This document shows positions 35,149-64,000 of a DNA stretch of 64,000 nucleotides, one piece after another. Below the pieces are notes generated by a model. The model did not search any database, was not told where the DNA came from, and saw only the letters and a list, made by a program, of their open reading frames with translations. Location of the stretch: positions 12,159,001 to 12,223,000 of the forward strand of contig NC_092673.1 of NCBI RefSeq assembly GCF_964355755.1. Direction: 5' to 3'. Each line of letters starts with the position of its first letter. Position 1 is the first letter of the stretch. The DNA is from Antedon mediterranea (Eukaryota > Echinodermata > Crinoidea > Comatulida > Antedonidae). The position numbers and the translations under genes are program-made.

Positions 35149-36269
35149 GGGTGCTCACAGATGGTTCTCGAATACAGTAGAATCCACGGACGGGGACTTT
35201 TTTGGGACACTAAACAAAAACGGAAGTGTCCCCCTAATTGGGGTATTCAGAAATAGAGACAACAAAACCAATACTGGATTCCATAAAGGACAATTAATTT
35301 ATGTGGATTAAAGAAATTAGGGAGAAATGGAAATGTATGTACGTACGGGAATTGGGCGGCACGTGGTGGTGGTGATGGAACCGCAGTAATAAAGTTGATT
35401 GTATTTATATATTATAAGAACCAAACTAAATAAATAGACCTAGACATTCTGCGAAATGGAAATCGGAAATTCAAGCTCCTATTCAGTGAAAAATTAAACT
35501 GTAGTCTACCTAAATATTTAGGGCAAATCATCGGTTGTGGTGTTGAAATTCCTGTAAACATTTGTGTGAACCAAACTGGGTCGAATTTCTGTCATGAGTA
35601 CTGATTTGTTGGCCTGTGATTTATGACGCCTAAGGGATCTATCTAGACTTATTTTTTAGAATAATGTACGTACCTGTCAGATACAATTGTCTTGTGTCGT
35701 ATAATAAATAAGTACTGTAATAGTTACTGAAGTTACTATTACAATCTCGTCAATGAAAACACGAAAATGTATATGCACTTACTTATGAAAACGTATACAG
35801 TATTATACTCAGTTATTGAAATAGTAGGTTTAAAAAAGTTTCGTTTGTCTGTAAAATGATGTAATCAAGCTGTTTACATGAGTCTTAATTTATAAGCACA
35901 TCAATAATAAAATAGTTTATCTATCCTGTAATTGGCGAGATTATGGTCGCTGTTGAATGAAATAAAGCCAATCGGTATCATATTTGTACAGAAACGTTTT
36001 CGCGGCCGAAGGGTGTAACCTAAATTCGTTGTATTATCGTCAAGAACTAACTGTAACTAAACTTACATAGAAAGTAGGGTATCATAAATTTGGCCTTAGC
36101 ACTCGGGGGAGTGGCTAAGATGAAGTCCGTGGGACTACTAAATATAAATTGTAATGAACCTCGAGGGACATAAATAGGAATATTTCATGTTTCATTATCA
36201 ATGTATAATAAATGGAAACTGTTTACCGATTCAAATAATAGAAATTGGTTTTTAACATTTTCCGAACCT

Positions 36270-36642
36270 ATTGCAAGTTTATTCTCAAAGGGCCCATATA
36301 TTTACCTACCGTATGTGTTAAACCAAGGGCTCATAAATTTACCTACAGTACTTGTGTTAAACCAAACTCTGGCAGACTGAGAGATTGGGATGTTCCATTC
36401 ATCGCAAATCAATACATTTGTATAATCGTATATTAAATCTATCAAAATAGTATTTTTTAAAGAAAATCGGCCTGTCTTCAACATTATGATGGTGTACTCT
36501 AGCAATCTATCAAAATAGTATTTTTTAAAGAAAATCGGCCTGTCTTCAACATTATGATGGTGTACTCTAGCTGTTCAACCGGTTTTCAGCTATTAAAAAC
36601 AATTATCGTAGGAGGAGATAGGAAAATGCGAAGCCTCCTCGC
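36270..36642. repeat. Direct repeat copy 1 (305-bp unit with a 68-bp internal duplication)
   Basis: The sequence from ATTGCAAGTTTATTCTCAAA to GAAGCCTCCTCGC recurs at 37089-37393. Within this copy 36436-36503 is repeated immediately at 36504-36571; without that the two copies have the same length. Not coding. Confidence 0.85.
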
Positions 36643-37088
36643 TATGTAACATTAGGGTTGAGGGATGGGAAAGCGGATAGGTACAAAGAGGAACAATTTT
36701 TAAATATATTCTTTATCCACTGAGTAACGAAATATTTTGTTCATGTTTTATAGGCCTATAAATAATATACCTCTAAATACAGTAGGCCTAAAACATTTGC
36801 GATTTAATACTTTGTTAAAACTGTCACTGTCATAATCGATTGAAATATTAAAGTACATGTCACGATACACCACTACGACGTTTATATTTTTGGTAATTAT
36901 TAATTAATACAAACGTTGAGAAGGAACTGTCAGTATAAAGTTTATTTGTATATCTAACAGTAGAGCCTATCCACAGTCTCAGTAATAAAGTTTATATTTT
37001 TATATTACATCTAACAGTAGGAACATTCACAGTAAGAAATGTTCGATTCAAATGAAAAATAGTTAATAGGTATTTACAGTATTGTCGT

Positions 37089-37393
37089 ATTGCAAGTTTA
37101 TTCTCAAAGGGCCCATATATTTACCTACCGTATGTGTTAAACCAAGGGCTCATAAATTTACCTACAGTACTTGTGTTAAACCAAACTCTGGCAGACTGAG
37201 AGATTGGGATGTTCCATTCATCGCAAATCAATACATTTGTATAATCGTATATTAAATCTATCAAAATAGTATTTTTTAAAGAAAATCGGCCTGTCTTCAA
37301 CATTATGATGGTGTACTCTAGCCGTTCAACCGGTTTTCAGCTATTAAAAACAATTATCGTAGGAGGAGATAGAAAAATGCGAAGCCTCCTCGC
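37089..37393. repeat. Direct repeat copy 2 (305 bp)
   Basis: Near-identical partner of 36270-36642 without its internal 68-bp duplication. Both copies end with a GGAGGAGAT...CCTCCTCGC inverted word. They could be LTRs of a very small element or a segmental duplication. Confidence 0.85.
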
Positions 37394-38010
37394 AATTTTT
37401 TGGCGGGTATTTTTCAAGATGGACATCCATTAGACAGTGTATACCACGATCGGAAAACACCCCTATTTGGGGCAAATCGTTGAACCTAAATTCGTTTTAA
37501 TCGTCAATAACTAATTATCTAACTCAATTTAATTAGTAAACAGGGTTACATCAGGCGGTTAAAATCAGTACCGAAAGTACGAACCAACTTTACATACCAT
37601 CGAGTGAAAATTCTAGAAGTAAGGCGCGATTTATCGAATTTTGCCCTTACGTAAATTTATATATAGATTGTGCTTGGTGGTACCATTAGTTCAATGATGT
37701 TGGCACCTTCTGATTCGCTAAAAGTTTTAATAGTTTGACAGAGGAAATAACATACATGTTATTGAATACCGTAAAACCTCGAAAAGGTGATATATGAGCT
37801 TCTTTTCGAGACAGACTGTATTTGATTGTCAAATGAATAGTATGATGATCGTGTTTATATCAATATATTATTAATGACCTTACAAAGAACCCTTTCTATT
37901 TCAACAATTAAGCCACAGTTATTCTACAATTTATTGTTTTCCAAGTGGTAGGCCTATTTTGATTGCATCTTATTTTTGTATGCTTCCTCGGTTAATATGG
38001 TCCTAACCCT

Positions 38011-39003
38011 CCTTCTTTGTCTGTAGATGGTATACCCCATTCTTTGTCTGTGGATGGTCTTATACCCGCTTCTGTGTCTGTTGATGGTATTATTACACCC
38101 CTTTCTTTATGTGTGGATGGTCTTACACCCATTTCTTTGTCTGTAGATGGTCTTACACCCCTTTGTCTGTGTATGGTCCTACACTCCCTTCTTTGTCTGT
38201 GGATGGTCCTACACCCCCTTCTTTTTCTGTGGATGGTCCTACACCCCCTTCTTTGTCTGTGGATAGTCTTATGCCCCCTTATTTGTCTATGGATGGTCTT
38301 ACACCCCTTTCTTTGTCTGTGGACGGTCTATACCCCTTTCTTTGTCTGTGGATGGTCTTATACCCCCTTCTGTGTCTGTTGATGGTATTACACCCCTTTC
38401 TTTGTCTGTTGATGGTATTAAACCCCTTTCTTTGTGTGTGGATGGTCTTACACCCCCTTCTTTGTCTGTGGATGGTCTTATACCCCTTCTTTGTCTGTGG
38501 ATGGTTTTATATCCCCTTCTTTGTCTGTGGATGGTCTTCTCCCCTTCTTTGTCTGTGGGTGGTTCTACACCCTCTTCTTTGTCTGTGGATGGTCTTACAC
38601 CCATTATTTGTCTGTGGATGGTCTTATACCCTCTTCTTTGTCTGTAAGTGGTCCTACCCCTTTCTTTGTCAGTGGATGGTCTTGCACCCCCTTCTTTGTC
38701 TGTGGACGGTCCTATACCCCTTTTTTTGGTCAGTGGATGGTCTTATACCCCCTTCTTTGTCTGTGGACGGTCCTACATCCCCTTCTTTGTCTGTAGATGG
38801 TCTTATACCCCCTTCTTTGTCTGTGGACGGTCCTACATCCCCTTCTTTGTCTGTAGATGGCCTTACACCCCTTTCTTTGTCTGTGGATGGTCTTATACCT
38901 CCTTCTTTGTGTGTGGATGGTCTTACACCCCCTTCTTTGTCTGTGGATGGTCTTACACCCCCTTTTTTGTCTGTGGATGGTCTTACACCCCCTTCTTTGT
39001 CTG
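38011..39003. repeat. Minisatellite with ~30-bp unit, more than 30 copies
   Basis: Units follow the pattern CTTTGTCTGTGGATGGTC then TTACACCCCC, with drift in the last half. Several frames on both strands stay open because the unit length is often a multiple of three. The apparent proteins (SLSVDGLTPP repeats or PSTDKEGGVR repeats) are by-products. It lies inside the 6.3-kb inverted-end element. Confidence 0.9.
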
Positions 39004-39534
39004 GACCCACTACTTTGATTGATTAAATTAGACATTGTTTCTTGTATGATTAGGAAACCAAGACCTTTAAAGTGAAATTCCACAGGTGGATGCCTAAACA
39101 GGTCTTGTACAGAACAGTATATTGTAGGTCCATGTCACTAATTTGAGGATTACTTGAATAATTATATTGAGATGCCTTTTAAGAATTGATTTAGTTCGGA
39201 TTTTGCTAAAAATATCAATGACTAGAGAAAATCGAGGAAAAGGATATTCAGATGAAAGGTTTACAGCAAAGGCCCATTACCATAAAAATAAAGTACATTT
39301 TTTTAGATGCAACGAAAAAACGATTGACACATCACAGTTTAGCAAATATGTCGGCATAGATGAGCTCAGTGATCTGTCATACTTTATGCCTATCCTATCA
39401 CATCAAAAGTTAAAAATTCAGAATAATAATTCCGTGTCATTTATTTCGGTAAAAAAATTAGGTGCATTTATACCAATTAAACCACATACAGTATGTTCAC
39501 ATAATTATATATGTCAAAGGTTATAAATTGTATT

Positions 39535-39985
39535 TCCAGTAATTTTATGTGAAAATGTTTCATTACTACAAATATAAATGTCTCTATTCTGAACAAAATG
39601 ACACCAAAATCGATTGAAAATGATCAGTAGTTACTGAGATATACAGATAAGAGGTTAAAGGTCAAACTGGAAGAAACGTCATTTCCGGTCATTTTTGGAC
39701 GAAACTTTTCATTAGAGCAAATAGAAATATGTGGTTTGTGAACAATTTAACACCAAAATCAAGTCTCTACTGTTTATAGTTGCCAAGATATGAACACTTT
39801 TTGTTTTTATGGTGGCCATTTTGAAATCAAGATGGCCGCCATACCGGACGTTGGACACTTGGCACCCCCCGATATTTCGAATCTATATACATCAAAGAAA
39901 CTTTGTGGAAAGTTTCATGCTTTGGTAATAAAGTGCACAACTTGGCCATTTTTATGGCGTTAACTGCTCTACTATAATAAATCTA
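39535..39985. repeat. Right inverted arm of the 6.3-kb element
   Basis: Reverse complement of 34505-34960 with modest divergence: AAAATGTTTCATTACTACAA, then CCATTTTGAAATCAAGATGG and GCACTTTATTACC-type words. See the left arm for module structure. Confidence 0.7.
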
Positions 39986-45263: not shown

Positions 45264-46447
45264 GGGAACATTTTAGCAGGGACGCTGTACAGACCTCCAT
45301 ATAGCAGAGTGGATTTCTTCGAAAAGCTCCAGGAATGTGTCGATCAAGTGTTAGTGGACGCCCATTTGTATAGTTTAATAATTATTGCAGGTGACTTTAA
45401 AATAATTTTAAATCTACTGGCACAATTTCAACGGAACAACGAAATATGCAAAGCACAATAGACGTCTTAAATCTAAGGCATTGTACGCATTACAAAAGAA
45501 AAAGAATTCGGCTAATACAATTATCGATCATGTTTACTCTGGTAGTACTGACATGGTAGCTGATATTCAACCTCACTCAGGTGTCGACAGTGATCATGAA
45601 GGAGTTTCTTTCAAACTTCGTATCTTTAAGGAGAACATTTCAAGACCAGCGGGTATTTTTTATGATTATTCTAAAATTTGTCCCCAACGTTTTATTGAAG
45701 AATTCGCAAATATTAAATGGAACAGTGATTTCACTGACGTGAATGAGTTATGGTTAAACTTTAAATTTATTGCAGCTATTAATGATGTTGTGTCCCTAAG
45801 GTCGGCCAAAAGGCGCCCTAAAAAAACTTGGATCTCAAGGGAGATTCTTAGTTTAATTAGAAAAAAGAATAGATTTTATAAAGCAGCTATTAGGTCTGTA
45901 AAATAACGACAAGTGGGATAGATACAAACGTATTCGTAATGACTTGAAATCTAAAATAAAAAAATCATATAAAAGTTATCTAAAGAACCTTTCCTCAAAA
46001 AATTAACACTGTAATCAGTTCTGGTCCTTCGTTCGAAGCTCTAGGGCTAAACCCAGCACTGATACCTTTGTCATCGAGGGTAATCGTGTCAACAACCTAA
46101 AGATCATAGCTGAGGCCTTCAATAAAAAATTCAAGGCTAATTTTACTCATGACGACCCTGACCACCTTTTAAATAATTCTTGTATTTTGCATGCTGGCTA
46201 CCCCAATTTCACTGATATCCAAACCACTGGTGCTGATATATTATCTGTTATTAACAAACTAAAAACAGGTAAATCTCCTGGACCTGATGGAATAACCACA
46301 ACTATGATTAAAATTGCTGCTATCTACATAATTGAACCATTATTTGAAATATTTAATCTATCCCTCAGCACTGATGTATTTTCCATTGAAATGAAGGCAG
46401 CCAACATCATTCCAATCCATAAGTCAGGTGACCAAGTTACCGATGTT
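45264..46447 (+). pseudogene. CR1/Daphne-like LINE: endonuclease and start of reverse transcriptase
   Basis: Frames give GNILAGTLYRPPYSRVDFFE and IIIAGDFK (endonuclease), then NTIIDHVYSGSTDMVADIQ and GVDSDHEGVSF (its C-terminus), RRPKKTWISREILSLIRKKN, and KLKTGKSPGPDGITT with IIPIHKSGD. Frameshifts occur near 45440, 45905 and 46005. It stops abruptly at about 46447, where a different LINE begins. Confidence 0.75.
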
Positions 46448-47527
46448 AAAACCAGGGAAGACGTAACACTGGATTTATGTTATTGTAACATAAAAAACAG
46501 CTACGTACGCCAGCAAAGTTTGCTCAAAACTTGGTCAGATCACAACACGATACACCTGATTCCCAAATACCGTCAACGAATCAAGCAATCCAAGCCGGTT
46601 ATACAACAACATAAGCGATGGACAAGGGCTTGACATGGAAACACGGGTCACCTCTAATTATATTTCTTTTTGTGTGGACAGCATTGTACCAACAGTGACA
46701 AAAATTCAGTATCCAAATGACAAACCTTGGATTACTGGCGAACTTAAAAGTTTGCTCCAAGAAAAACGCAAAGCGCATGGTGCTGGAAATGAACTAAAGG
46801 TTAAAGAATTACAAAAAGAAATAAATTTAAGTATAAGTGTAAAATAGAGAACAAATGTAAGGAAAATAACCCTAAAGCAGCATGGAAAGGTCTTCAGATT
46901 CTTACAGGGTATAAAAGTACAACACTAACATATCAAACAAAGATCCGAATCTTACAAATAAATTAAATGACTTCTTCTGCCGTTTCGATGATGAAGCTGA
47001 TACCAATAATTTACTGAATACACAGATGCCGCCTCTAAATTGTGTTAACCAATCTCTGATCTCTGAGGAGTCTGTCAGGAATGTGTTTTCGAAAGTTAAG
47101 GTCAATAAAAGTACAGGACCAGATGGCATCTCAAATCGTGTTTTAAAATATTGTAAAAATGAATTAGTACCCATATGTACTAGGCTTTTTAATTTAAGTA
47201 TAACAAATGGAATTGTTCCAAAAATATGGAAAACCTCTTTTATCAAACCTCTCCCTAAAGTAAAAAAAACCAAATTAATTAAATGACTATAGACCCATTG
47301 CCCTCACGTCAAATGTTGTCAAATGTCTTGAAAAAATAATTCTTAAGGATGTCGTCAATCAATCAAGTAATTTTCAAGACAATTATCAATTTGCTTATCA
47401 GTCTAATAGAAGTATGGAGGATGCTATTTTAACACACCTAAATAAGATATGTAATCACTTAGATAAGTCAAGATCATATCTTAGATCTCTGTATGTAGAC
47501 TTTTCAAGTGCCTTTAAAACCATTATT
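46448..47527 (+). pseudogene. Rex1-like LINE: endonuclease end to RT motif A
   Basis: Begins TREDVTLDLCYCNIKNSYVR and SDHNTIHLIPKYRQRIKQS, then KPWITGELKSLLQEKRKA, STGPDGISNRVLKYC, KTSFIKPLPKVKKT, DYRPIALTSNVVK and SLYVDFSSAF (motif A). Several frameshifts. The same type of protein, better preserved, is encoded at 62393-64000 on the other strand. It is cut at 47528 by a tandem repeat. Confidence 0.75.
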
Positions 47528-47531
47528 CTTT

Positions 47532-48006
47532 ATCCTGTAAGTTTCCCCAAACAGTAGTCCTAGACAGTAGCTCAGAAATGCCCGTTGGGCTATACAAAAT
47601 TTAATTACACGACGAGCCACACGGCCAATTCCTTTTTTATTAGAACTGTTACGTCTTGGGATAGACGAAAATACCGATGACAGCAACTTTATCCTGTAAG
47701 TTTCCCCAGACAGTAGCCCCAAACAGTAGCCCAGAAATGCCCGTTGGGTCCGGGCCTACAAGATTTAATCACACGAAGAGCCACACAGTCAATTCCTTTT
47801 TTATTGGAACTATTACGTCTTGGGATAGACGAAAATACTCATGACAGCAACTTTATCCTGTAGGTTTCCCCAGAGAGTAGCCCCATACAGTAGCCCAGAA
47901 ATGCCCGTTGGGTCCGGGCCTACAAGATTTACACGAAGAGCCACACGGCCAATTCTCTTTTTATTGGAATTTTTATGACTTGAAATATACGAATGTATTC
48001 ACGACA
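47532..48006. repeat. Three tandem units of 150-164 bp
   Basis: Each unit begins ATCCTGTA(A/G)GTTTCCCC (47532, 47691, 47855) and contains AGAAATGCCCGTTGGG, CGAGCCACACGGCCAATTC-type words and TTGGGATAGACGAAAATAC. The array sits between a LINE fragment and the decayed gene at 48000-48570. No coding role is seen. Confidence 0.85.
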
Positions 48007-48584: not shown

Positions 48585-49618
48585 ATACAGATAACTTTTA
48601 TTGTCCAACCTAAACTGGAAATTGCATTTGCTCACTTATCACATAAAAATATCGTATAAAAATATCGTATAAAAATAAAGTATAAAATGTAGAATAACAA
48701 AATAAAAATACACAATGATTAAAATAGTACATCATAAAATTACAGCTCAAAAATATTTAAGTTTTGTTTGTTTGTTTGTTTATTTATTTTTTCCACTCAC
48801 TTATATATATATATATATCATTTACATTTACATAACATATATTAAATGTGGGTGGATGGAAGTCACAGTAAGTTCACTGAACTTTAAGTCGTGACTCCCG
48901 TATGCCTATAAGTATACTAACATTGCTACAGAGTAGACTAAAATATGAATATATAATAGTGAAAGTACATAAAATCAAAAAAAAAATCAAAAATTTAAAT
49001 TATAGAAGTTAAGATAAACCAGGCAATTATATAATATAATGATAAAAGGGATAATGATAACAATTAGAGTACAATATGAAATATAATTAAATATGGTATA
49101 ATAACAAGTATAACGATACAATGTAGCGGAGATAATTGAATACCAGGGTGAAGGATTTAATGCCATGTATCACCACCAAATAAATAAGGATAAAAGATCA
49201 GCGAAAAATTATGTAGCATATTCTGACACCATTTTGTGTTTGAAATTAGATTTAAAACTAGAAAAGGAAGATTTCTGTTTAAGTTCATTTGAGAGTGAAG
49301 TCCAAAGTTTGGGACCAAAATAATACATAGAAAATCGTCGAGCCTTAACATTTAAATTATCAATAATTGTTAACAGAGGATCGGGTTTTATAGGAATGGC
49401 GTTCGTCAATTCTTGTAAATAAAGCATTAAAATGTGAAGGCAGTAAATTGTTAGATAAACGGTACATAAATGAGGCAACTTGTAATTTATTTAAATCATA
49501 AATGTTTAAAACGTTAAATCTTTTAAAAAGTAATTTTGTATGGGCTCTAAATGATTCTCCCGCGCAAATCCGAAGTGCACGTTTTTGTAGTTTAAAAAGG
49601 CGGTCAATTTGAGTTTTC
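48585..49618 (-). pseudogene. L2/CR1-like LINE, ORF2 C-terminus and 3' UTR (left part of the split element)
   Basis: The frame resumes just left of the TCTAGA duplication with KTQIDRLFKLQKRALRICAG, SFMYRLSNNLLPSHFNALF and, after a frameshift near 49375, RRFSMYYFGPKLWTSLSNEL. The 3' UTR runs to about 48585 and ends with GGACAATAAAAGTTATCTGT and (CTGTAT)n. It continues the ORF2 at 58363-61073. Confidence 0.85.
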
Positions 49619-49624
49619 TCTAGA
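49619..49624. repeat. TCTAGA target duplication, left copy
   Basis: TCTAGA here and at 58357-58362 bracket the 8.7-kb element. Removing the element and one copy restores the LINE reading frame exactly. Confidence 0.75.
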
Positions 49625-50344
49625 TAGACAGGTTCCATTTCTCAAAAAACGGCCTAGAAAACGAATCAAGAAGCATTTTTGGGTAGAAGCTGGGATCCAC
49701 TTTATTTAGGATATTTGGACCTCGCTGATTACGAATATGGCGGATCCCAAGCGAAATTCGGCCATCTAAGCCCTAAATTTGCATAATTAAAAATGGCGGC
49801 CATTTTTTATAATTACTCTATATCTCGAGAACCACTAGTCACAGATAATTAATTTTGGTCTCAAAATGTTTTAAATATATGTTTTTATATTCACTTTAAT
49901 GACACATTTTCTCTAAGAATGGATGCAAGTCTTATTTCTGACATTTTGACCTTTGACCTTTATTTATCGTACCTCAGTAATCGGAGAGACACAAAATAGG
50001 TCTCAAATTGTTCAGAAACTATACATTCATATTTATTATAATGAAATGTTTTTACAAAAAATGGCCGATTCTACAACTATTGACCTTTGAACTATTAGTC
50101 AAATATAATAATATAATAATAATATAACTTTGAAAATTGTGGTCTTATGAATTTTTTTTTCTTTTTAAATTGTTTAAAACATGTGTGTTTCTATCCAGTC
50201 TAATGGGACATTTTGTACAAGAATGGCCGATAGCATGGTTATTGACCTTTAAACTACAGCATAGGCCTACTGTATACTAAATATAATATAATTGCATAAC
50301 TATGAAATTATTTATACACAATAATAATAATAATTAGTAAAATT

Positions 50345-50925
50345 ATAAAATTCACTGCCATCAAATATGATGTGTTATGATTTATATAGATTTAAAAAAA
50401 ATTTGAACACGCAAGTTACATTTGTTGAAATTTGAAATTTGAAATTACCTGCCATCAATATGATGGAGTATGATTATAGATTTTTAAAAATGTGAACATG
50501 TCAGCTACATTTGGAAATTACCTGCCATCAATATGATGGATTATGATTATAGATTTAAAAAAGAATTCGAACACGTAAGCTACATTTGAAAATTACCTGC
50601 CATCAATATGATGGATTATGATTATAGATTTAAAAAAGAATTTGAACACATCAGCTACATTTGGAAATTTGGAAATTACCTGCCATCAATATGATGGATT
50701 ATGATTGTATACTACCTGCCATCAATATGGTGGATTATGATTATAGATTTAAAAAAGAATTTGAACACGTAAGCTACATTTGAAAATTACCTGCTATCAA
50801 TATGATGGATTATGATTATAGACTTAAAAAAGAATTTGAACACGTAAGCTACATATGAAAATTATCTGCCATCAATATGATGGATTATAATTGTATAGAT
50901 TTAAAAGAAAATGTGAACACGTAAG
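50345..50925. repeat. 72-bp tandem repeats in the left arm
   Basis: About eight units of the form TACCTGCCATCAATATGATG, GATTATGATTATAGATTTAA and a GAACACGTAAGCTACATTTG-type end, the outermost most diverged. A matching inverted array lies at 57150-57625. Confidence 0.85.
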
Positions 50926-50935
50926 CTACATTTGG

Positions 50936-51073
50936 AATGAACATGTTAAGGGCATCAGTTTAAGATCATTCATGCAAAGGTTTCCGTCATCTTTAGCGTT
51001 GTTACAGCGGCATAAAGCTGTACATGGTAGTTTTGCCTTCTTGCACCTACATCTATTGGTTATGCATCGTTAA
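50936..51073 (-). pseudogene. Cysteine-rich C-terminal tail of the HEESDTR-family protein (left arm copy)
   Basis: The minus-strand frame is open and reads RCRCKKAKLPCTALCRCNN, then DDGNLCMNDLKLMPLT, and stops inside the first 72-bp repeat. The upstream part of the protein was lost where the Tx1/L1-like LINE inserted. The right arm carries the same segment inverted. Confidence 0.65.
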
Positions 51074-51699
51074 TAAATAAAATGTAAAATACATGATTAA
51101 AATTGTCTTGTTAAACTATCTTATTTGTGATCTTATTTGTGTTCGAGTTTGTGTTCGAGTAGAGAGGCTATAAACTCAGGGGAGGAAAATGTAGTATCCT
51201 CCCTTTTCACCAAGATAAGATGGATGGTATGAAAAAAAGAGGAATGCAGTAGGTTGAAAGTTAGTTATTTAGAATGATAGCATGAAATGGTATATTTAAT
51301 GGAAACCGTTAGGTTAGAGTCCATACACGGTGCAAGTCCAAGATGCAATTTTGGCTCTGTGTGTATGTGAGACGCTTCATACCCGATGTCATCTTAGTAC
51401 AACTACTACTTACAATTTGTATTTACGGTATAACATATTATAGTAGTATAGAAGTATATATATTGAACAAATACACATACCTATAGATTAAATTGACATG
51501 TATACGATATAAAATAATGCAAATATAGAAAGATATATATGTTAAACAAATACCAATACCTACAGATTATATTGACATGCTACATGTATTTGAACTATTG
51601 TCATCTTAAAAAGGTATACTGTAAACAGATTTTACGTTGATATGCAGGATTTGTGTCCATTATGATAAGGTAAGAAAGAAAAAGGAATCGATAAAATAA

Positions 51700-54012
51700 T
51701 TAAATTATTAACATCAAGTCTTTAGATAGTTTTAATAATTTATCTTTTAGGTTATTCGTCCATTTCTTCTGAGCCTTATGTAAATTATTCATAAATTCAT
51801 TTGTTAATAAATGCTTTAATTCATAGTAAAATAATCTCCAAATTATTTTTGATTCCTGATTTTGTTTCTTTTCTTTTCTTATTACTAAACACGATTTATA
51901 GATGCAAAAAGTAAATATTGAAATAAGTTCATTTACAGTTTTCGTTTCCGATCCTTTAACAATATTACGCCAGGTTATATCAATCTTTTGTACAAAACAG
52001 TTTGAGATCAAAAACTTAAATACAATCTCACTATTACATCTTTCACATATGTCATTTATTGAAAGTTTCCAAATTTTTAACTTACTTTTACACGCAAGAA
52101 TACGATGTAGTAGTTTGAAATTGAATTGCGCGACTTTTGTGATATGTGTCATAGAAAACACCTTGTTATACCATACGGTATCCCATGCAAAAGTGTAATT
52201 TTGAAATTCTATCTCCCATTTTTCTTGTGCTATAGGAGTTGATATTATATTTTCCACAAATAAATTATAAAATAGTTTTGCATTAAGTTGTTTTGTATGA
52301 AGCCAAAAGCAATCGGTGTTTGTTTGATTATTTACATGTTCACCATTCAAAATAATTTCCTTCCATGATTGTGGTATAGCATTCATTAGCCCTATATATT
52401 CAATTAATCCATTTTGTTTCTGTGATAGTAATGGTAACACTTCATTCATTGGTAATAATATATTCTCCTTAATTATGTCATTCATTGTTCTAAAGCCTGC
52501 ATCAAGCCAAACTTTGAAATAGATTGACTTTCCATTTAACTGTATACATTTATTTTCCCACAATTGTTGGTTTTTAACGTCTTCAATGTTTTGTGGGTCA
52601 GACCAGTTAAAGTTGTTAATATTAACTATAGCAGTTATCATTTCTCTATAGAAAACAGGCAATAGTTTTAGATCAGAATGCTCTTCATTGTTAATTTGAG
52701 TGATATTAACAGTATACTTAATAGGGTGCATAAAATAACTCGGTATACATTTCCATTTTCCTGGATCTGGGCTAAGGAGTCGCTTAACCCAGTTTAACTT
52801 CAATGCTTTGACTTTTGCATTCAAATTAATCATATTTAAACCACCTTTATCTGTTTTTCTATTGAGTGTGGTTCTTTTAATCTTTTCTCGTCTACCACTC
52901 CACATAAAACTATATATTATCTTTTCCACCTTGGGCAAGATATATTTTGGTACGGTTATAATGCTAGCATTGTATATTAGTTTAGATATGGCTAGGGTTT
53001 TAATTATAATAATTTTTCCAAAGAACGTAAGATTTCTTCTTTTCCATAATCTTAAGATATTTTCTAAAGAAATAATCTTATCGTCCCAGTTTTTCTTTTC
53101 ACATAATTTGTTATCGTATCCAACATAAATTCCTAGAAACTTTACAGGTTTCTTTGTCCATGCAATATTACATGGTTCTGACATATTATGTTTACTCGCA
53201 CCAATCCACATACCATTTGTTTTTCCTTTGTTCAATCTTAAACCTGATATTCTACAGATTAGCTCAATCTCATGTAAAAAGCAGATTAATGATTCTTTAT
53301 CTTTTGTAAAGATGATAGTATCGTCTGCAAGCTGAGCTATCTTAACAGTACATTCTTCATCATTTATTTTTGGCAATTCAATTCCTTTACATAGGGGATT
53401 GTTCCGTATGTTACAGGCCATCAATTCAACTACCAATATAAATAACAAGGCCGATAAAGGACACCCTTGTCTTATTCCACGTTCCATATTAATGCTTTCC
53501 GACATCCAACCATTATTTACCATTATACTTTCTGTATCAGTATATATTACTTTAATCCATTTAATAAAAGAAGGACCAAATCCAAATTTTGTTAGCGTTT
53601 TTAACATTAAATTTCTGTTTACCGAATCAAACGCTTTTGCAAAATCGAGGAAAATTAAGGCGCCGGGTTTGTTTTTGATATTAGTAAAATAAAGTATATC
53701 TTCTACAAGTCTTATGTTTTCACCACCAAATCTTCCAGTAATGTAACCTTTTTGATCAGAATGTATAATAGTTGATATTACTTTTTGTAATCTGATTGAT
53801 AGAACATGAGCTAATATCTTATAATCTACATTAATGAGTGTGATAGGTCGCCAGTTTTCTAACTTCTCTCTTTGTCCACTTTTGAAAAGTAATTGAATTA
53901 TACCTCTCCTTTGTGAATTTGAAAGTATGTTGTTGTGATAATTATAGTTCAGAGCTGTACACAGCATTTCTTTTATATGGTCCCAAAACTTTCTGTAAAA
54001 TTCAACACTCAA
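51700..54012 (-). pseudogene. Tx1/L1-like LINE reverse transcriptase (C-terminal part of ORF2)
   Basis: 770 open residues starting at an internal Met. Motifs in order: LENWRPITLINVDYKILAHV (RT 2), ALIFLDFAKAFDSVNRNLML (motif A), MERGIRQGCPLSALLFILVV (motif B), IAQLADDTIIFTKD (motif C with LADD), RISGLRLNKGKTNGMWIG, and KPVKFLGIYVG. A C-terminal Cys/His region follows (DICERCNSEIVFKFLISNC). This style is typical of the Tx1/L1 group. It is joined to the endonuclease frame at about 54010-54030 by a one-base frameshift; otherwise intact, so fairly young. Confidence 0.9.
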
Positions 54013-55451
54013 GCCATCAGATCTGGGCTTTTATTAAGGTGCATTTTTAAAACAGCATTTGTGCATTCATCAACTGATAATAATCCCTCACATTTAGTAT
54101 AGTCATCAATTGAAAGTTTGCTTACATTTGATCTGTGTAAGTACTCATTAATTTTATGATCAGGGATATTTTTTTTTGCATATAGCTGTCTGAAGAAACT
54201 TACTTCTTCCTTTATAATTTCAGATGTGTCTGATGTGTATTTTCCATTACTTTTTAATACTGAAGTAATGTGTTTTCTTTTTGCGTTGGATTTTTCTAAT
54301 CCTAAAAAGAATTTAGTGTTTTTTTCTCCCTTTTCAAACCAGTCCAATCGGGATCTAATTTGGGCACCGTGTGCTTCAATTGAATATATATCATTAAGCT
54401 CTTTCTGGATGTTGCTTAATTGGATATTTGTTTCATCATCATATGCAATATCAAGTTTATTTGTTAATTCTTTGACTTTTTTGAACAATTCTTCTTTATT
54501 AACTTGTCTTTTTTGTTTCTTTTGTTTACAATATGTGCTAGAAAATGTTTTGATCTTAACTTTTAGGTATTCCCAGAGGAGGTCCGGGCTAAGATTATTT
54601 TCATTATTTTTTACATTACTAATTATTCTGATTATGTTTACATTGTAATCATTATCATTTAAAATGCTGTTATTAATTTTCCAAAGTCCAGGACCTTTTT
54701 CTGCTTGGTGGTTTACAATTTTAAGAGAGATTGCTTGATGATCAGAACAGATAGATGGTCTAATGTCGCAAGACACAATTTCACCATTTTTATAGAGGGC
54801 GTTCGAAACACACCAAAAATCTAACCTTCTGTATGTTTCTTTTCGTCTCCACGTATACTGAGTTTTGTTTTTGTGGCATTGTCTCCATATGTCAATTAGT
54901 TTATGATTACGCATACAATTTTTTAATATTTGTGGCGAGTTATCATAAGTATTTACACTGTTCTTTTGATCAAGATTACATTGTAATATACAGTTCATAT
55001 CACCGCCAATTATGATATGCTCATCAACACTACAAAGGGAATCGATCTTCTTTTCAAGTTTCTTAAAGAATAACGATCTTTCTTTGTAATTATTTGGCGC
55101 ATACACATTTATTAAAGTAAAAATTTGTCCGTTATATTCTAAACTTAAAATAAGTAGTCTACCTTCCTCATCTAAGTATTTACAACTGATGTCTTTTATG
55201 TCAAAATTCGACTTAAATAGCATTGAAACGCCTCTGCTATTTGTCGTTCCAAAGCTATGGAAAGTGTATCCCTTCCATAACGTATCGTAACATTTCACAG
55301 ATTTTATATCAAAGTGTGTTTCTTGAAACACGATATCTACTTTTTGTTCATCTAGCCAGTTAAATACTTTTCTCCTTTTAATATTATCTCTAAGACCTCT
55401 AGCATTTAATGAGATTAAATGAAGAGGGCTGTTTTTTCGTTTTATTGCCAT
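54009..55451 (-). pseudogene. Tx1/L1-like LINE endonuclease (N-terminal part of ORF2)
   Basis: The likely start is the Met at 55451 (MAIKRKNSPLHLISLNARGL), since the upstream open stretch is a (TA)n repeat. Motifs: VDIVFQETHFD (catalytic Glu), LINVYAPNN, IIIGGDMNC, YTWRRKETYRRLDFWCVSN, and SICSDHQAISL (catalytic SDH). The linker includes RSRLDWFEKGEKNTKFFLGL. The frame closes at LNKSP, where the protein would continue as DGLSVEFYRK in the next frame, showing a single-base lesion. Confidence 0.88.
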
Positions 55452-55562
55452 TTTTTTTTTTTTTGCTTTTTGTATATATATATATATATATATAATTATA
55501 TTATCCAATTTTTTTAACTTTCTCTCTTTACGTAAAGAGCAGTCGATCAGATAATTGTGTAT

Positions 55563-55931
55563 TTAACTTACGGAGTCAGTCTTTTTTTCTTTCTTTTCCG
55601 CATTCTTGTCTCCACTTTCTGTCATCTTCTTTCTTTTCCCTGCAGCGAATTGTTGCCTAGCGGCTGTCGCTGTATCTGAGTCAAGTGTATCTTTTTTCGC
55701 AGTTGTAGCGACATCTGTGATAGGTCTCATACCTTTAGTGCTTTTGTCTAGTTTACTTTTCTCTCCTTGTTTCTTTTCTTGTTCCATTTTTTCTACATTT
55801 TTCTTCTCTTGTTGTTTTTTCTTTTTCTTCTCCTTCTTAGAGCGTTGAGATCCTTGATTCTCTGAAGACAAATTCTCGTCACCGCTGAGAGATTTTACTC
55901 TATCAATCGCTTCCTTCATGATTGTCTCCAC
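55563..55931 (-). pseudogene. LINE ORF1 remnant, lysine-rich
   Basis: 122 open residues rich in Lys/Glu (KKEKKKKKQQEKKN), placed directly upstream of the Tx1/L1-like ORF2. Only the basic C-terminal part of an ORF1 would be present, the 5' end being truncated at about 55950. No zinc knuckle is retained. The assignment rests mainly on position. Confidence 0.4.
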
Positions 55932-55950
55932 TCTCTCTTCTAGTTTTAAC

Positions 55951-56710
55951 TTGACAAAAACCGTAAACGTAGCAAATGAATCTTTCCGATTTCATAATAA
56001 CTTGGTCACTGATAGGTTTTCTCCCAGGTCTTTAATTAGTTCATAATTTTTTTTAATACTTCCCATGCCGATGCCTTTGATTGACCACTTAGATATGAAC
56101 AGGGAAGAGTTAAATTACTGTATGTATGTATTAATGTAATTTAACTCTTCCCTGGATATGAGGTAGAATCGCATCCACTAATAGTGTGGAACGGAATCAG
56201 TGCTTTTGCATAAACCTCGGGCAAGGCTTGAAAAATGTCTTTTATAGATACTTTCTTTTTTTGGATGTCCCTGTCATCATCCATTTGGATACCATGCTTT
56301 GGTAGTGAGACACTAGAATCACTAGTACGTCTGTATCTCTAGAAGCAACTACAACTGTGTCGTATCGGACATTGGCAGCATGACAAGTCTCGTGTCCGAT
56401 TCTTCATGATCTGCGACCAGAAACAACGTATTCGTATAGACTTTTGATGATTTAACAACTCATTCTTTCATAAATCCACCAGCTGTGACAATTTCTTTGT
56501 CTATAGGAGCTTGACGAATCAACTCCTCTGATAGAAATCGTGCCAGATCTGCTTTATTATCTTGTAATGCCAAAAAGTTTGACCAGCAATTTGGCAGCGG
56601 TATTTCACCACTTTCTATAATTAATTTTCGACGAATTGGTCTCTGTGTTTTGGTTCATCTTTGTCTAGTGGTGTCCTTTATCGACAGTTTTAAGTTAGGC
56701 ATGCCATGTT
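55951..56710 (-). pseudogene. HEESDTR/GCDSTS-family protein, central part, decayed
   Basis: In order on the minus strand: SIKDTTRQR, PIRRKLIIESGEIPLPNCWS, ALQDNKADLARFLSEELIRQ, FLVADHEESDTRLV, YDTVVVASRDTDVLVILVSH, PFHTISGCDSTSY and, past a 55-bp palindrome insertion, KSERFICYVYG. The spacing of acidic residues (EESDTR, then S/R-DTDVLV about 20 residues on, then GCDS) resembles the metal site of PIN/FEN-type nucleases; this is inference. Two stops and at least two frameshifts break it. The protein would end with the cysteine-rich tail found in both arms. I know of similar unnamed proteins in invertebrates but cannot give a function. Confidence 0.6.
56092..56162. mobile_element. 55-bp CAGGG...CCCTG palindromic micro-element with 8-bp flanking repeats
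   Basis: The element at 56100-56154 has perfect 19-bp arms (CAGGGAAGAGTTAAATTAC) around a 17-base centre. It is flanked by GATATGAA (left) and GATATGAG (right). It interrupts the HEESDTR-family gene right after the GCDSTSY codons. Too short to code for anything. Confidence 0.75.
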
Positions 56711-56724
56711 AAAAAAAAAAACCA

Positions 56725-57035
56725 GAGGCATTACCTCCAACAAGCGATGCAGTGCACCGGCATATAAAAAGAGCACACCTCCAAGCATTCGTATTGAAAA
56801 AAGCTGTATCGCCAATCCAGCATTTGCCATCACCAACAGATTTTGGTTGGGAGCTATCTAATGGTAAACTTCAACCAGTGCTTCTGAAAAATGAAGCTAT
56901 TCCCACTGCTTCGTTAGAGATGATTTATTGTGGATGCAAAACACGATGCATAACCATATAGATGTAGGTGCAAGAAGTCAAAACTACCATGTACAGCTTT
57001 ATGCTGCTGTAACAACGCTAAAAAAGATGACGGAA
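56725..57035 (+). pseudogene. C-terminal part of the HEESDTR-family protein, inverted copy beside the right arm
   Basis: The plus strand encodes PEALPPTSDAVHRHIKRAH, then PSPTDFGWELSNGKLQPVLL, then EMIYCGCKTRC. After a frameshift near 56960 come RCRCKKSKLPCTALCCCNN and KKDDGN. Cysteines are spaced CxC...C...CxC...C...CxC, a possible zinc-binding tail. It faces the central part of the gene head to head, showing that the arm inversion included this coding segment. Confidence 0.65.
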
Positions 57036-57115
57036 ACCTTTCATGAATGATCAAAACTAATGCCCTTAACATGTTCATTCCAAATGTAGCTTACGTGTTC
57101 ACATTTTCTTTCAAA

Positions 57116-57156
57116 CCTATACCAGGGAGTTGTTATTAACAACTCCCTGCCTATAC
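57116..57156. mobile_element. 27-bp perfect palindrome with 7-bp target duplication
   Basis: CAGGGAGTTGTTA and its exact reverse complement face each other around one T (57123-57149). CCTATAC flanks it on both sides (57116-57122 and 57150-57156). The 72-bp repeat it interrupts matches its neighbours when the insert and one duplicate are removed. Confidence 0.85.
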
Positions 57157-57625
57157 AATCATAATCCATCATATTGATGGCAGGTAATTTCCAAATTTCC
57201 AAATGTAGCTGACGTTTTCAAATTCTTTTTTAAATCTATAATCATAATCGATCATATTGATGGCAGGTACTATACAATCATAAATCCATCATATTGATGG
57301 CAGGTAATTTCCGAATTTCCAAATGTAGCTGACGTGATCAAATTCTTTTTTAAATCTATAATCATAATCCATCATATTGATGGCAGGTAATTTTCAAATG
57401 TAGCTTACATGTTCAAATTCCTTTTTAAATCTATAATCAAAATCCATCATATTGATAGCAGGTAATTTCCAAATGTAGTTGACATGTTCACATTTTTAAA
57501 AATCTATAATCATACTCCATCATATTGATGGCAGGTAATTTCAAATTTCAACAAATGTAACTTGCGTGTTCAATTTTTTTTTTTTAATCTATATAAATCA
57601 TAACACATCATATTTGATGGCAGTG
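57150..57625. repeat. 72-bp tandem repeats in the right arm
   Basis: About seven units, the inverse of the array at 50345-50925: ATCCATCATATTGATGGCAG followed by GTAATTT(C/T)CAAATGTAGC-type and TCTTTTTTAAATCTATAATC-type words. Confidence 0.85.
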
Positions 57626-58356
57626 AATTTTATAATTTTACTAATTATTATTGTGTATAAATAATTTCATAGTTATGCAATTATATTATATTTAGTATAC
57701 AGTAGGCCTATGCTGTAGTTTAAAGGTCAATAACCATACTATCGGCCATTCTTGTACAAAATGTGCCATTAGACTGGATAGAAACACACATGTTTTAAAC
57801 AATTTAAAAAGAAAAAAAATTCATAAAACCACAATTTTCAAAGTTATATTATTATTATATTATTATATTTGACTAATAGTTCAAAGGTCAATAGTTGTAG
57901 AATCGGCCATTTTTTGTAAAAACATTTCATTATAATAAATATGAATGTATAGTTTCTGAACAATTTGAGCCCTATTTCGTGTCTCTCCGATTATTGGTTA
58001 CTGAGATACGATAAATAAAGGTCAAAGGTCAAAATGTCAGAAATAAGACTTGCATCCATTTTTAGAGAAAATGTGTCATTAAAGTGAATATAAAAACATA
58101 TATTTAAAACATTTTGAGACCAAAATTAATTATTTGTGACTAGTGGTTCTCGAGATATAGGGTAATTATAAAAAATGGCCGCCATTTTTAATTATGCAAA
58201 TTAAGGGCTTAGATGGCCGAATTTCGCTTGCAGCGAGGTCGAAATATCTTAAATCAAGTGGATCCCAGCTTCTACACAAAAATGCTTCTTACACCATATT
58301 TCAGAGGAAATAGAACTTGTCTAAGACTTGTCCAGGGGCATAACGTATTAAATTTA

Positions 58357-58362
58357 TCTAGA
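58357..58362. repeat. TCTAGA target duplication, right copy
   Basis: Matches 49619-49624; see the left copy. Confidence 0.75.
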
Positions 58363-61073
58363 GTAATTGCCCAACATAAATTGGCATAAGAAAGGTAAGG
58401 CAAAACTAAAGTATTATAAAGGGTTAATAAGGTTTTTTGAGGGAAGATATGTTTTAATTTGTTCAATATTCCAACATTTCTAGAAACTAGATTACTGATT
58501 TTATTTATATGTAGTTTCCAAGTCAGAGAGGCATCTATGGTTACTCCTAAAAATTGTGTTTCATTAACTCGTTTGATCATTTTATTATCAATGTATATTT
58601 GTTCATTTAAAGAATTTGAAATTTTACGTTTAGAAAATATTATATAGTTCGTTTTGAATGTATTAAGAGTTAATTTATTGTGTTTGAGCCAATTTGAAAC
58701 TTTAAGTAACTCATCATTGACAATTTTAAACAAGGTATTTAATTTAGGATGAGAGAAAAAAATATTTGTGTCGTCAGCAAATAAGATAAAATTTAGTAAT
58801 TTAGAGCCGTTTGGTATATCGTTAACAAAAATCAGGAATAAGAGTGGTCCAAGAATCGATCCTTGGGGAACACCACAGGTTAAACGGGAATAGGAAGAGT
58901 TAAAATTATTTAAGGAAGTAAACTGAACACGATTGAAAATGTAGCTTTTAATTAGTTTTAAAGGAAGGCCTCTGATACCGTAATTTGAAAGTTTATGAAT
59001 TAAAATATCGTGGTTAATAGTATCGAAGGCCTTAGATAAATCAAGGAAAATGCCAACAGAAAACTCATTTTTACTCAGGGCAATTGTAATTTTGTCAAAA
59101 ATATCTAATAAAGCAAGATCTGTTGAATACTTTTTCCTGAAACCATATTGGCCTTTAAATAAAATGTTATGTTTAGTTAAAAAGGAAGAAATTCGATTAT
59201 GCATTATTTTTTCAATTAATTTTGAGAAACAAGGAAGTAGGGAGATTGGTCTGTAGTTATTGAAAAGATGAGGATCTTCTTTCTTGTAGATAGGGATGAC
59301 TTTAGCTATTTTAAAAGAATCAGGAAAAATACCGGTTTGAAAAGAAGTATTAAAAATGTGAGTTAAGGGTTTGCATATAAAATTAGAAACACGTTTAATA
59401 ATTTTAATGGAAAACCCATCAAACCCAGGAGATTTATTATCTTTGAGGGAAAGTATTATACTGACAACTTCATGTTCGGTTACAGGACTAAGAAAGAGAG
59501 AGTGCACACATGGACGAGGTAGGGTAGAAGTATAATTATCATTATTCGACACATGTATTTTGTTAACTAAATTTGGCCCTATACTAGTAAAATAATTATT
59601 GAATTCAGTTGCAATTTGTTGAGGATTATTTAATTCAATGTCATTGTTAATAAAGTGAGAAGGAAATGGTTTACGAGATTTCTTGCCAAGGACTCCATTT
59701 ATTGTTTGCCAGGTTTTTTGGATGTTATTTTTATGGAATTCAAATTTGTCACTGAAGTAATTCTTTTGGGCAGTACGAAGGATTTTGGTAAGTACATTTC
59801 GATATTTAACATATTTATTTTTGTCCTTTTGCTTTTTAGATATAAGAAATGTTTTATATAATTTGTGTTTTTTGTCGATAGATTTAATTAAGCATTTAGT
59901 TATCCAAGGTTTTTTTTCTTTCCGAATATTGCGTCTGGAACGAGTGGTTTTAATGTTGTTATTATATAATGTACTAAATATGTTGTTGAATAAAGCGTAT
60001 GCCTCATTGGGTTCATTGGAGTTATAAATACTAGTCCAGTCAACATTTGACAAATCATTACTTAAGGCAGAAATTGAAATGTCATTGACTTTTTTTATGT
60101 AAATATATTTTGATTTAGGTTTCAGGTGTTGGAGAGGTTCTGATTTATGTATTAACAAGAAAACAGGAAAGTGATCCGAGATGTCCGAATATAGAATTCC
60201 GGAAGAAATGTTATCGTATAGATTATTACAAAAAATATTGTCGATTAAAGTTGCAGAATTACGCGTAATTCTAGTTGGCCTAGTAATAAGAGGATAATAA
60301 TTTGATTGAAATAAAGTATTAACAAAATCAGAAGTACCTTTATGTGTTTTGGAATTTAACAAGTTAATATTAAAGTCTCCTGAAATATATGCTGTTTTTT
60401 TCTCATTATTAATGGTGTCAATTAAATTAGAGATATCTTTACTAAATGTGTTAATGGATAATTCAGGCAAACGATATACTACTCCAAGGATTATGTTTTT
60501 GGGTTGTGCATCGATTTCAATGAAAAGAGATTCCGAACCATTAGTAATGATAAATGATAAATCAGGGCGAAGAATATATTTAAATCTCTGGTGTAGGTAA
60601 ATGGCAACGCCTCCTCCTGGTCTATCAGCTCGTGAAACATGCAAGAGGTTATAATTGGAAATATTATAAAAGGAAAAAGGCGTATTATGATTAAAAAAAG
60701 TTTCGGTGAAGCATAGTGCTGAGAATTCATGGTTAATAGCACCTACGCATACATTGATATCGTTAAAATGTTTAACAAGACTGCGTGCGTTTAAGTGAAA
60801 GATACTAAATGAATAATCTTGTGTTGAATATTTGTTGTTAAGACTATCGATATATTCATAGGCACAAGATTCAATATTTTCGGAAAATAATTGGGCATCG
60901 TTGTCATTAATAACATCTTTAAAATTAATATCAAAAGGGTTAAAAATTAAAGAATTAAATCTATCAAAGTCAATTCTATCGTCACAAAAGTAATAGTGAA
61001 TGACATGCAAGAATTCATCATTATCAATAATGTGATTAAATGGGAATGCATCTATATTGTCAGAAGGGTCCAT
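58363..61073 (-). pseudogene. L2/CR1-like LINE ORF2 (endonuclease and reverse transcriptase), interrupted at its C-terminus
   Basis: Open from MDPSDNIDAFPF through the endonuclease (FHLNARSLVKHF, CFTETFFN, RPGGGVAIYL, GVVYRLPE, AYISGDFNINLL, SDISDHFPVFLL) and reverse transcriptase (LKDNKSPGFDGFSIKIIKR, KVIPIYKKEDPHLFNNYRPI, IFLDLSKAFDTINHDILIHK, CGVPQGSILGPLLFLIFVND, FILFADDTNIFFS, THINKISN-type thumb) to YLSYANLCWAIT. There the 8.7-kb element begins; the rest lies at 48585-49618. About 900 codons are uninterrupted, so the copy was young when it was hit. It is the downstream partner of the ORF1 at 61518-62210. Frames after 58363 are read-through into the inserted element. Confidence 0.92.
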
Positions 61074-61517
61074 GAGAATATCTAGCGGTACATAATGTGA
61101 TCAGTTTATTCAATAGTATGTAATAAAAGATGCCTGGTAATGTTACGTAAAAACAGAAAAGTACAAGAACGTAAATATAAAGAAACAAGTTAAGAATTGG
61201 GGGGTAACAATAAAACAAAGGTGAATAAATGGTTTTAAGTGGTTTAAACATCTTATGACAATGAAATTATGTGAGAACAGACTCCTGAAAACGCTATTGT
61301 AAAATTATTATGTAAAATCAATCAAGGGGCTTATACAAATTAAGCAAAGTATGCAGATGTAAGGAAAATAATGGATAAAAGATTCTTAGTCTGTTGTAAA
61401 ATTTAATAATGGATTGAATTTGTAAAGAAGAAATGTTTCTAAACAGTCCAAGTGTTTACAACAACATTCCGATCACTAGTATGGCAATGGAATTTCGAAA
61501 AGTTTACCGGAACTATT

Positions 61518-62392: not shown

Positions 62393-64000
62393 TTACCTCT
62401 TAAAGTCATCGTTAAATTTTTTAATCCCAGCTGGGAGAAACGAATTTGAGTATCGACCCGTCCGCGCCAACACCGGCCTCAGTCTACCACTTCTACCAAT
62501 GTGGCAGCGAAGAAGATCCGAATGAAGGGGGTGGCTTTCCTCCTCCATGATCGCCTGTAAACCATTTTTCAATCGTTCTCCGTAGTGACAATCGTAGACT
62601 GAGTCCGCTGTCAGCGCCGACGAGCCAATCACTCTTAATGCCCTTTCTAACACTTTACATATGCGGCCCTTATCTCCCTTGTTTATGTTCCCACCCCAGC
62701 CTAATAGGCAATAATCCCAGATTGAAAAAATAACAGATGAATAGAACATAGTAAGTATCTCTTCCCTAACCCTAAAAACGTTCATTTTCCTCAAACAGTA
62801 CAGTCTAGTATTTAATTTTTTAATTAGTTGATCAACATGCTCTCCCCATGATAAATTATTGTCATACGTTACCCCAAGATACTTAACGATTTCTACCTCA
62901 TGTCCTTTAATCTGGACAGGCTCAATTTCCCTTCTTTTTTTACGACGGAAATCTATTCGCATTTCTTTGGTTTTTGCTACATTAAGTTCCAGGAAATTGT
63001 CATCACAGTATTTCGTAAACCTAACTATTTCAGATTTGAAATTTGTATCGTCATCCTCTTTTATTAAACCTATCATTGCAGAATCATCTGCAAATTTAAT
63101 TACTGGACAGTCCGGGAACCTAGGTTGGAAATCCGACGTATACAATGTGAACAAAAACGATGCAAGTACAGTACCTTGTGGTGCTCCCGTATTTGTCCGA
63201 ATAATGTCCGATTTGACATTTTGATTTAGCCTAACAAACTGGAGACGTCCAACGAGGAAGTTAAAAACGAACGAAATTAGTAAATTGGGGATATTCATGC
63301 CGAACAACTTATTAATTAAAATGTGTGATTGGATGGTATTAAAAGCTGAACTAAAGTCGAAGTACATAATCCTAACAGACGGGGATGTTCTCCAATTGTC
63401 AAGATGGGCATACATTTTTTCATTTTTGTATATTAATGCGTCTTCAGTGTTCCTGTTTCTCCGATAAGCGAACTGATGTGGGTCCAAAAAATCTGCAACT
63501 AATGGTTTCAGGCGTTTTAGAACAATCTTTTCACAAACTTTCATTGTGACGGATGTTAGCGCAACAGGTCTAAGATCGTTATAACACTGTATATTTTGTA
63601 GTTTAGGGATTGGGATGATGCATGACGTTTTCCAAGATTCCGGCAAGGTTTGTGTTTCATAAATCAAGTTAAAAATATATACAAAAATATCTGCCAATTG
63701 GGTTGCGCATAATTTAAGAACTTTGGGTAGAATTTGGTCTGGTCCAGCTGATTTGGATGCTTTCAGACCTTTAAAGTGGCTGGTAACTTCATCCGCATTT
63801 GTCTTAAAGGTCAAAACCACTTTCATCTGGTAAGGCCAACCTACTTTTGAATAAGATCTGTTCATCAGAAAAATTATAGCAATCGAACCTATTAAAAAAA
63901 GTATTTAATTCATTAGCATATTGCTTAGTCAAATTCGACACAATTCCACTTCCTTGTGGCGATTTTGCATATCCGCTCATTTGCCTCATTCCCCTCCAAA
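62393..64000 (-). pseudogene. Rex1-like LINE ORF2, reverse transcriptase and C-terminus, runs off the right edge
   Basis: The 490-residue frame (63865-62393) carries LKASKSAGPDQILPKVLKLC, CIIPIPKLQNIQCYNDLRPV, RIMYFDFSSAFNTIQSHILI (motif A), TGAPQGTVLASFLFTLYTSD (motif B), VIKFADDSAMIGL (motif C), VEIVKYLGVTYDNNLSWGEH and a C-terminus RPVLARTGRYSNSFLPAGIK typical of Rex1-group elements. A frameshift near 63845 separates it from MRQMSGYAKSPQGSGIVSN upstream, which continues past the window. The 3' end lies at about 62390 and is followed by ATT-rich microsatellite sequence. It belongs to the same group as the remnant at 46448-47527. Confidence 0.9.

Follow-up and report, generated by a model that had tools for sequence, protein, structure and literature searches.

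Evidence for a Foldback-like, AcademX-type transposon family and its parental element in Antedon mediterranea

An element with long inverted arms and its family

The 64,000 nt of Antedon mediterranea DNA analysed here (contig NC_092673.1, positions 12,159,001 to 12,223,000 of the forward strand; hereafter the window, whose coordinates are used for all features) hold an 8699-bp element with long inverted arms. We are nearly certain that it belongs to an AcademX-type family of non-autonomous cut-and-paste transposons with Foldback-like arms, and that the copy in the window was later interrupted by an L1-like long interspersed nuclear element (LINE). The family is a non-autonomous DNA transposon of about 3.9 kb. 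Its parent is an element of 7158 bp, with native terminal inverted repeats (TIRs) of about 0.5 kb and one long open frame for an XPG-like nuclease and a CXC domain; relatives match DUF6589 weakly. Judged by alignment to this parent, the derivative reads as a 5′ TIR, then the parental 3′ region in inverted orientation (75-bp array, CXC, piece of the nuclease), then a shorter copy that runs to the authentic 3′ end. An earlier note, made from the letters of the window, had described a single 8.7-kb element inserted as a unit into another LINE. Entry as a unit is confirmed; the nested LINE, over half of the length, had been overlooked. The parts of the element are as follows (strand. where none is assigned):

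49625..58323, strand., whole element of 8699 bp, a non-autonomous transposon almost certainly of AcademX type, with nested LINE; termini TAGACAGGTTCC...GAACTTGTCTA, shared by 18 of the 20 genome copies that were fetched
49622..49624, strand., target site duplication AGA, left (LINE-relative alignments and genome copies)
58324..58326, strand., target site duplication AGA, right (same evidence)
49625..51070, strand., left arm; outermost part of parent 5′-end type, inner part of parent 3′-end type, inverted
50340..50937, strand., 75-bp tandem array of the left arm (repeat analysis)
50962..51069, strand -, C-terminal CXC coding piece in the left arm (homology to XPG-CXC relatives)
51071..55940, strand -, nested L1-like LINE, 4870 bp, in place of 256 bp of the element (comparison with copy L017)
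51700..54030, strand -, reverse transcriptase frame of the nested LINE
54009..55562, strand -, endonuclease frame of the nested LINE, different from the frame of the reverse transcriptase part
55941..56691, strand -, broken XPG-like nuclease coding piece (homology to XPG-CXC relatives and to the parent)
56691..56692, strand., inversion junction common to the family (2551 of the parental locus L030 joined to L030 1847, inverted)
56692..58323, strand., right arm and gene 3′ end; parent 3′ end outward from the inversion junction
56713..57040, strand +, second copy of the gene 3′ end (KKKPEALPP...CXC), frameshifted (homology to XPG-CXC relatives)
57078..57638, strand., 75-bp tandem array of the right arm (repeat analysis)

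The inverted arms described earlier are there: 49668-51070 pairs with 56943-58290, and the pairing extends outward, with gaps, to the sequence TAGACARGTTC that both ends read next to a 3-bp target duplication, AGA. Identity is 95.9% (1299 of 1355 aligned columns, 49625-51070 against 56943-58323), rising to 97.5% in the core stretch 49748-50770. A piece of coding sequence does lie within the arms, and so do tandem repeats, but with a period of about 75 bp where 72 bp had been announced. Further out stand three divergent modules, each about 125-135 bp long, with limits set by eye (pairwise z 7.4-7.7, 300 mononucleotide shuffles).

A search of the 354-Mb assembly with the left arm's outer 326 bp (E <= 0.001; 40 of 825 first-look candidates scored) gave at least 41 matching places, the window's own included. 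Of the remaining 40 we fetched 20, chiefly those with the highest scores; 18 of these show both ends within 10 kb, with lengths of 3664-4437 bp. These two-ended copies begin with TAGACAGG (TAGTCAGG in two) and finish with CTTGTCTA. Sixteen are flanked by an exact 3-bp target duplication; for 3-mers drawn at random from the window, agreement occurs in 467 of 20000 draws. L013 has a 4-bp duplication, TATA, in a TA-rich flank. All 18 are built in the same order: end, arm, gene 3′ end (minus), nuclease piece (minus), gene 3′ end (plus), arm, end. Aligned with 19 others over its outer 712 bp, the window copy diverges by at least 2.0%, by a median of 3.0% and by up to 14.2% (L014).

The window copy is longer than the others because the 4870-bp L1-like LINE replaced 256 bp of it. 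Compared with copy L017, it matches to 51070 and resumes at 55941, with 256 bp missing between, so that 51071-55940 is a later insertion. Neither of two LINE probes found a match at E <= 1e-10 in the 20 fetched copies. The solved structure nearest to the reverse transcriptase of the nested LINE is that of L1 ORF2p, at E about 3e-55, with R2 at 7e-24, which is its likeness to the L1 clade; the LINE differs in the short frame upstream of the endonuclease (142 aa) and in its 256-bp target deletion. The window is rich in LINEs, and further long reverse-transcriptase-like or LINE-like frames were seen by eye, from translations, at 23157-29607, 45412-47557 and 62393-63904.

The parental element and its protein

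When the homologous protein P0198 was used to search the assembly (38 of 1128 candidates scored), at least 47 matches were found. The best, at G000:C8:1303719-1307339, contains a frame of 1547 aa, counted from stop to stop, without internal stop; its gene is homologous over positions 1-1214 of P0198. This is the parent, L030: 7158 bp with a 3′-type end at 1302563, a 5′-type end at 1309720 and AGA flanking each side. Its two ends are 90-99% alike for about 500 bp, and 69-83% beyond. The nuclease stretch of the window is 92-94% like it. A second parental copy (L031, G000:C8:16438630-16442214) has one stop codon and is 98.5% identical to L030 over about 6.3 kb, a resemblance that may mean that the parent was recently active. 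The assembly also contains several XPG-CXC genes that have diverged more (L032-L036, L038-L041); long open frames are present in some of them, and some have subterminal modules in common with the arms in the window.

By predicted fold, the 50 PDB matches listed for the homolog P0134 comprise Exo1, FEN1, XPG/Rad2, T5-type nucleases and one plastid exonuclease; residues 665-1037 of P0196 recover the same nucleases together with XRN exonucleases and GEN1, and in a viral structure library XRN/FEN-type nucleases are among the best named matches listed. The broken coding pieces of the element derive from a protein with a CXC tail and a nuclease part of predicted Exo1/FEN1/XPG-like fold. No relatives were found in viral contigs.

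Origin of the long arms

The arms differ from the parental TIRs in a way that may tell how they were made. The left arm starts with 100 bp of 98% identity to the parental 5′ end and 88% to the 3′ end. From 100 to 500 bp the two parental ends can scarcely be told apart, and from 500 bp inward identity is 92-100% with the 3′ end and 70-84% with the 5′ end. In the right arm, both the first 100 bp (95% vs 91%) and the part from 400 bp inward are of 3′ type. Copy L017 repeats the pattern at both ends. The head-to-head junction 56691|56692 joins two pieces that are inverted in the parent (L030 2466-2551 and 1847-1734), and it is matched in 18 of the 20 fetched copies, ten over the whole 201-bp query and eight from query position 44 on. 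As the junction is common to these copies, a single founder is likely for the family.

Such a founder would have arisen when an excision or a break was repaired. The inverted 3′ TIR would have served as pairing partner for the broken 5′ side, which would then have copied 2-2.5 kb inward before being sealed by end joining. A single switch inside the TIR, by which the 3′ region is copied behind the 5′ TIR, would be the simplest account, and would leave the derivative with an authentic end of each kind, 5′ and 3′. The parental protein could then move it in trans, giving 3- or 4-bp duplications, with the subterminal modules and the 75-bp arrays probably serving as binding sites of that protein. 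The L1-like LINE entered the window copy afterwards, with its 256-bp deletion. Taken as a whole – one template switch within a TIR founding a Foldback-like family with an inverted nuclease-CXC gene end, in dozens of copies or more, still movable by the intact 1547-aa protein and using the arm repeats as extra binding sites – this scenario has, in our opinion, an even chance of being right. We infer both the switch and the mobilisation in trans, and hold this against the scenario, as we do the finding that the right arm, at 101-400 bp, is slightly nearer the parental 5′ TIR (99/96/94% vs 96/95/93%). The parental TIRs hardly differ there, and exchange between TIRs may have produced the pattern.

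Because 3′-type sequence makes up most of both arms, the derivative could also be imagined to come from inversion or dimerisation of whole elements, with two 3′ ends only and no switch inside a TIR. We consider this unlikely: in its first 100 bp the left arm is of 5′ type, in L017 (100% vs 90%) as in the window. Less probable still is that the long arms are simply ancestral TIRs of the parent, the element being a plain internal deletion derivative. The parent does have genuine TIRs, some 0.5 kb long, into which the outer portion of the arms continues. Yet beyond about 500 bp a gapped alignment of its ends gives 69-83% identity (two control stretches inside L001, a related element described below, gave 71%), and its 5′ side matches the arm over the outer 0.6 kb only. 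The head-to-head meeting of the nuclease piece with the 3′ gene end, two pieces inverted in the parent, also argues against simple deletion.

Ends of the element and the empty site

The note had placed the element at 49619..58362, with a 6-bp duplication, TCTAGA. The host LINE lies on either side:

58324..61100, strand -, host LINE, upstream part of ORF2 (endonuclease and reverse transcriptase), including the right-hand TCTAGA at 58357
49209..49624, strand -, host LINE, C-terminal remainder, in two frames (frame translations and LINE-relative alignments)

A single element of 8.7 kb with a TCTAGA duplication and of unknown superfamily now retains hardly any credit with us, despite features that made it attractive. 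TCTAGA is present at both places, joining there leaves the LINE frame open, 92 of 116 BLAST alignments to LINE relatives lack the CPW stretch discussed below and lie one residue off that join, and for two of ten close relatives it slightly outscores the corrected join. However, the right-hand TCTAGA falls in coding sequence of the LINE that its nearest relatives also have, the nearest of all reading WAITVDKFTNLCPWTS across it. The host frame in fact continues for 36 bases inward of the right end first proposed, to 58327. These bases encode LDKFNTLCPWTS, where P0002, the nearest LINE relative, has VDKFTNLCPWTS. Beyond that proposed end the window LINE reads WAITLDKFNTLCPWTS, and its continuation on the left side is LEKTQIDRLFKLQKRALRICAG; P0002 reads WAITVDKFTNLCPWTSFDSTHIDKLFKLQKRALRICAG across the insertion point. 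Nor does the hexamer carry much weight: the two outer flanks (99 and 122 bases) share a 6-mer in 4782 of 5000 mononucleotide shuffles, so that a shared 6-mer is what chance provides. The earlier note had itself proposed that other copies with different ends would refute it, and so they do: 18 copies end at TAGACAGG (or TAGTCAGG) and CTTGTCTA, not at TCTAGA.

Alignments to LINE relatives, found with the reverse transcriptase part of the LINE (7947 matches, 120 of them listed), bear on the join itself. Against P0002, the join 49624|58327 costs three gap columns and scores 1250; the TCTAGA join costs 15 and scores 1223, and a join without duplication costs 17 and scores 1216. The corrected join scores best for six of ten relatives (P0002, P0003, P0004, P0009, P0012, P0017), equals the no-duplication join for P0016, is 1 lower than it for P0008, and falls 5-7 under the best score for P0007 and P0013; it has fewer gap columns in all ten. 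Since the alignments favour this join, the target duplication is AGA, 3 bp. A stretch of the form [CN]PW[TSNL] occurs in 19 of the 120 relatives listed, and 20 of 116 BLAST alignments covering the TCTAGA join have 12-13 extra residues right at the junction; the 92 without the stretch, with one residue fewer, are the more distant relatives among the matches listed. By its own sequence the window LINE belongs with the relatives that carry the extra stretch. The empty site is therefore best read as ...CPWTS-LEK-TQIDRL, on the strength of protein relatives and of the ends of other copies, while the frame previously rejoined through LCWAIT and KTQIDRL proves a coincidence.

Comparison with known systems

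We take the nuclease of AcademX elements to be of XPG type. The AcademX lineage of the Academ superfamily (Kojima) is outlined in PMC10045372 as having a nuclease, so named, with a 3- or 4-bp duplication and TIRs. The elements described here share all three: the nuclease is XPG-type by the predicted folds of homologs and by the homology of the parent to P0198, and duplications are of 3 bp in 16 of 18 copies and 4 bp in one, with AGA at the parent and TTA at a relative on a mussel contig. Their termini are TAGACARG, TAGTAGAG and TAGTAGGG. An element that the earlier note could match to no superfamily can thus be assigned to Academ, lineage AcademX. The family differs in being non-autonomous, with Foldback-like arms obtained by inverted recruitment of a gene 3′ end. 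AcademH, with a helicase and duplications of 9-10 bp, does not fit duplications of 3 bp.

Several observations pull the other way. One of the 18 copies, L018, has a duplication of only 2 bp, and two of the 20 fetched (L014, L027) show a left end alone within 10 kb. Profile searches of Pfam, NCBIfam and PDB sequences gave no link between the nuclease and XPG; the nuclease sequence profile run against PDB gave one meaningless match (E 0.63). DUF6589 is weak in Pfam: it is listed at E <= 1 in six of seven relatives, its best score being 27.2 bits against a cut-off of 27, and the others lie below. No DDE transposase was seen, the fold-search matches listed covering the nuclease alone and none the N-terminal half of P0196.

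A Polinton/Maverick or a Galileo/P-type element, which the large size and the repeat-bearing arms might evoke, has next to no probability. Both are refuted by the length of the duplication, 3 bp here against 6 bp in Polintons (PMC10045372) and 7 bp in Galileo (PMC3573991); the coding pieces are XPG-CXC, and no P-type transposase matched among the frames scanned with Pfam. Galileo, of the P superfamily in Drosophila, is nonetheless instructive as a precedent. Its TIRs have been lengthened by tandem repeats and by recruitment of neighbouring internal sequence, reaching 1,260 and 1,241 bp, 95.2% alike, in examples from PMC3573991, and its tandem repeats contain binding sites for the THAP domain of the transposase (PMC3688188). 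Both systems have long, internally repetitive arms grown by recruiting internal sequence; they differ in superfamily, duplication and transposase (THAP/P in Galileo), and the piece recruited here extends well into coding sequence. Foldback-like is a structural label, not a clade, and the long inverted arms with internal tandem repeats fall under it. At the level of titles and abstract openings, the literature yielded no Foldback-like Academ element.

Related elements, arm motifs and small inserts

34518-39974, strand., second related AcademX-type element; TIR TAGTAGAGCAG, target duplication TAA; each arm about 0.52 kb long
56100..56154, strand., 55-bp palindromic mini-insert CAGGGAAG...CTTCCCTG in the nuclease piece
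57123..57149, strand., 27-bp palindromic mini-insert in the right arm, duplication CCTATAC (left arm without insert)

The arms of the second element are identical in 460 of 500 aligned columns, and 83-89% identical to the genome locus L038, where an XPG-CXC relative is encoded with a single stop. Its interior has a 60-bp tandem array (37997-39003) and, by tblastn, no nuclease pieces. A subterminal module is common to its arms and those of the main element (z 9-14). Another relative, L001, is a 3282-bp element (86-3367) with ends TAGTAGGGTGCCC and the duplication TTA; its XPG-CXC coding end lies about 1.36 kb from the element terminus. The contig is filed under a mussel gill symbiont and, being an animal-type transposon contig in a bacterial record, looks like residual host DNA.

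The motif TGACCTTTGA is kept as a lead only. Six of its seven sites in the window are in arms of the two elements (34818, 34949, 49947, 50081, 57881, 58022), none in the right arm of the second element; the other is at 19679, and L001 has one, in its 3′ region. The recognition of TTYRAA-type sites by the CXC domain of LIN54 (PMC4974476) suggested that CXC might bind such sites in the arms. They number 21 and 15 in the two arms, against 6.4 and 6.1 expected (0 of 400 dinucleotide shuffles each). Enrichment is uneven: outside the array the left arm has six against 3.4 expected (47 of 400 shuffles), not clearly enriched, nor are the arms of the second element. By eye, the contacting tyrosine does not fall at the corresponding place. 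This idea, too, is retained as a lead and nothing more.

The window has three tiny palindromic inserts of the form CAGGGAR...YTCCCTG, the two given above and one of 27 bp at 22180-22206, all flanked by repeats some 6-7 bp long. The insert at 57123, with its 7-bp CCTATAC, is missing from the sister arm and is thus a genuine insertion of just 27 bp.

Meaning for the Academ superfamily

A practical caution comes first: a palindromic 6-mer together with an open frame can mimic a target duplication. Academ elements have been little studied, and a single genome here brings together an intact-looking parent and a palindromic derivative family with clean ends and duplications. This system could allow tests of end recognition, of the role of the XPG-like nuclease and of the effect of long, repeat-filled arms. 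After Galileo, it would be a second superfamily in which Foldback-like arms appear, here with a possible origin in one step.
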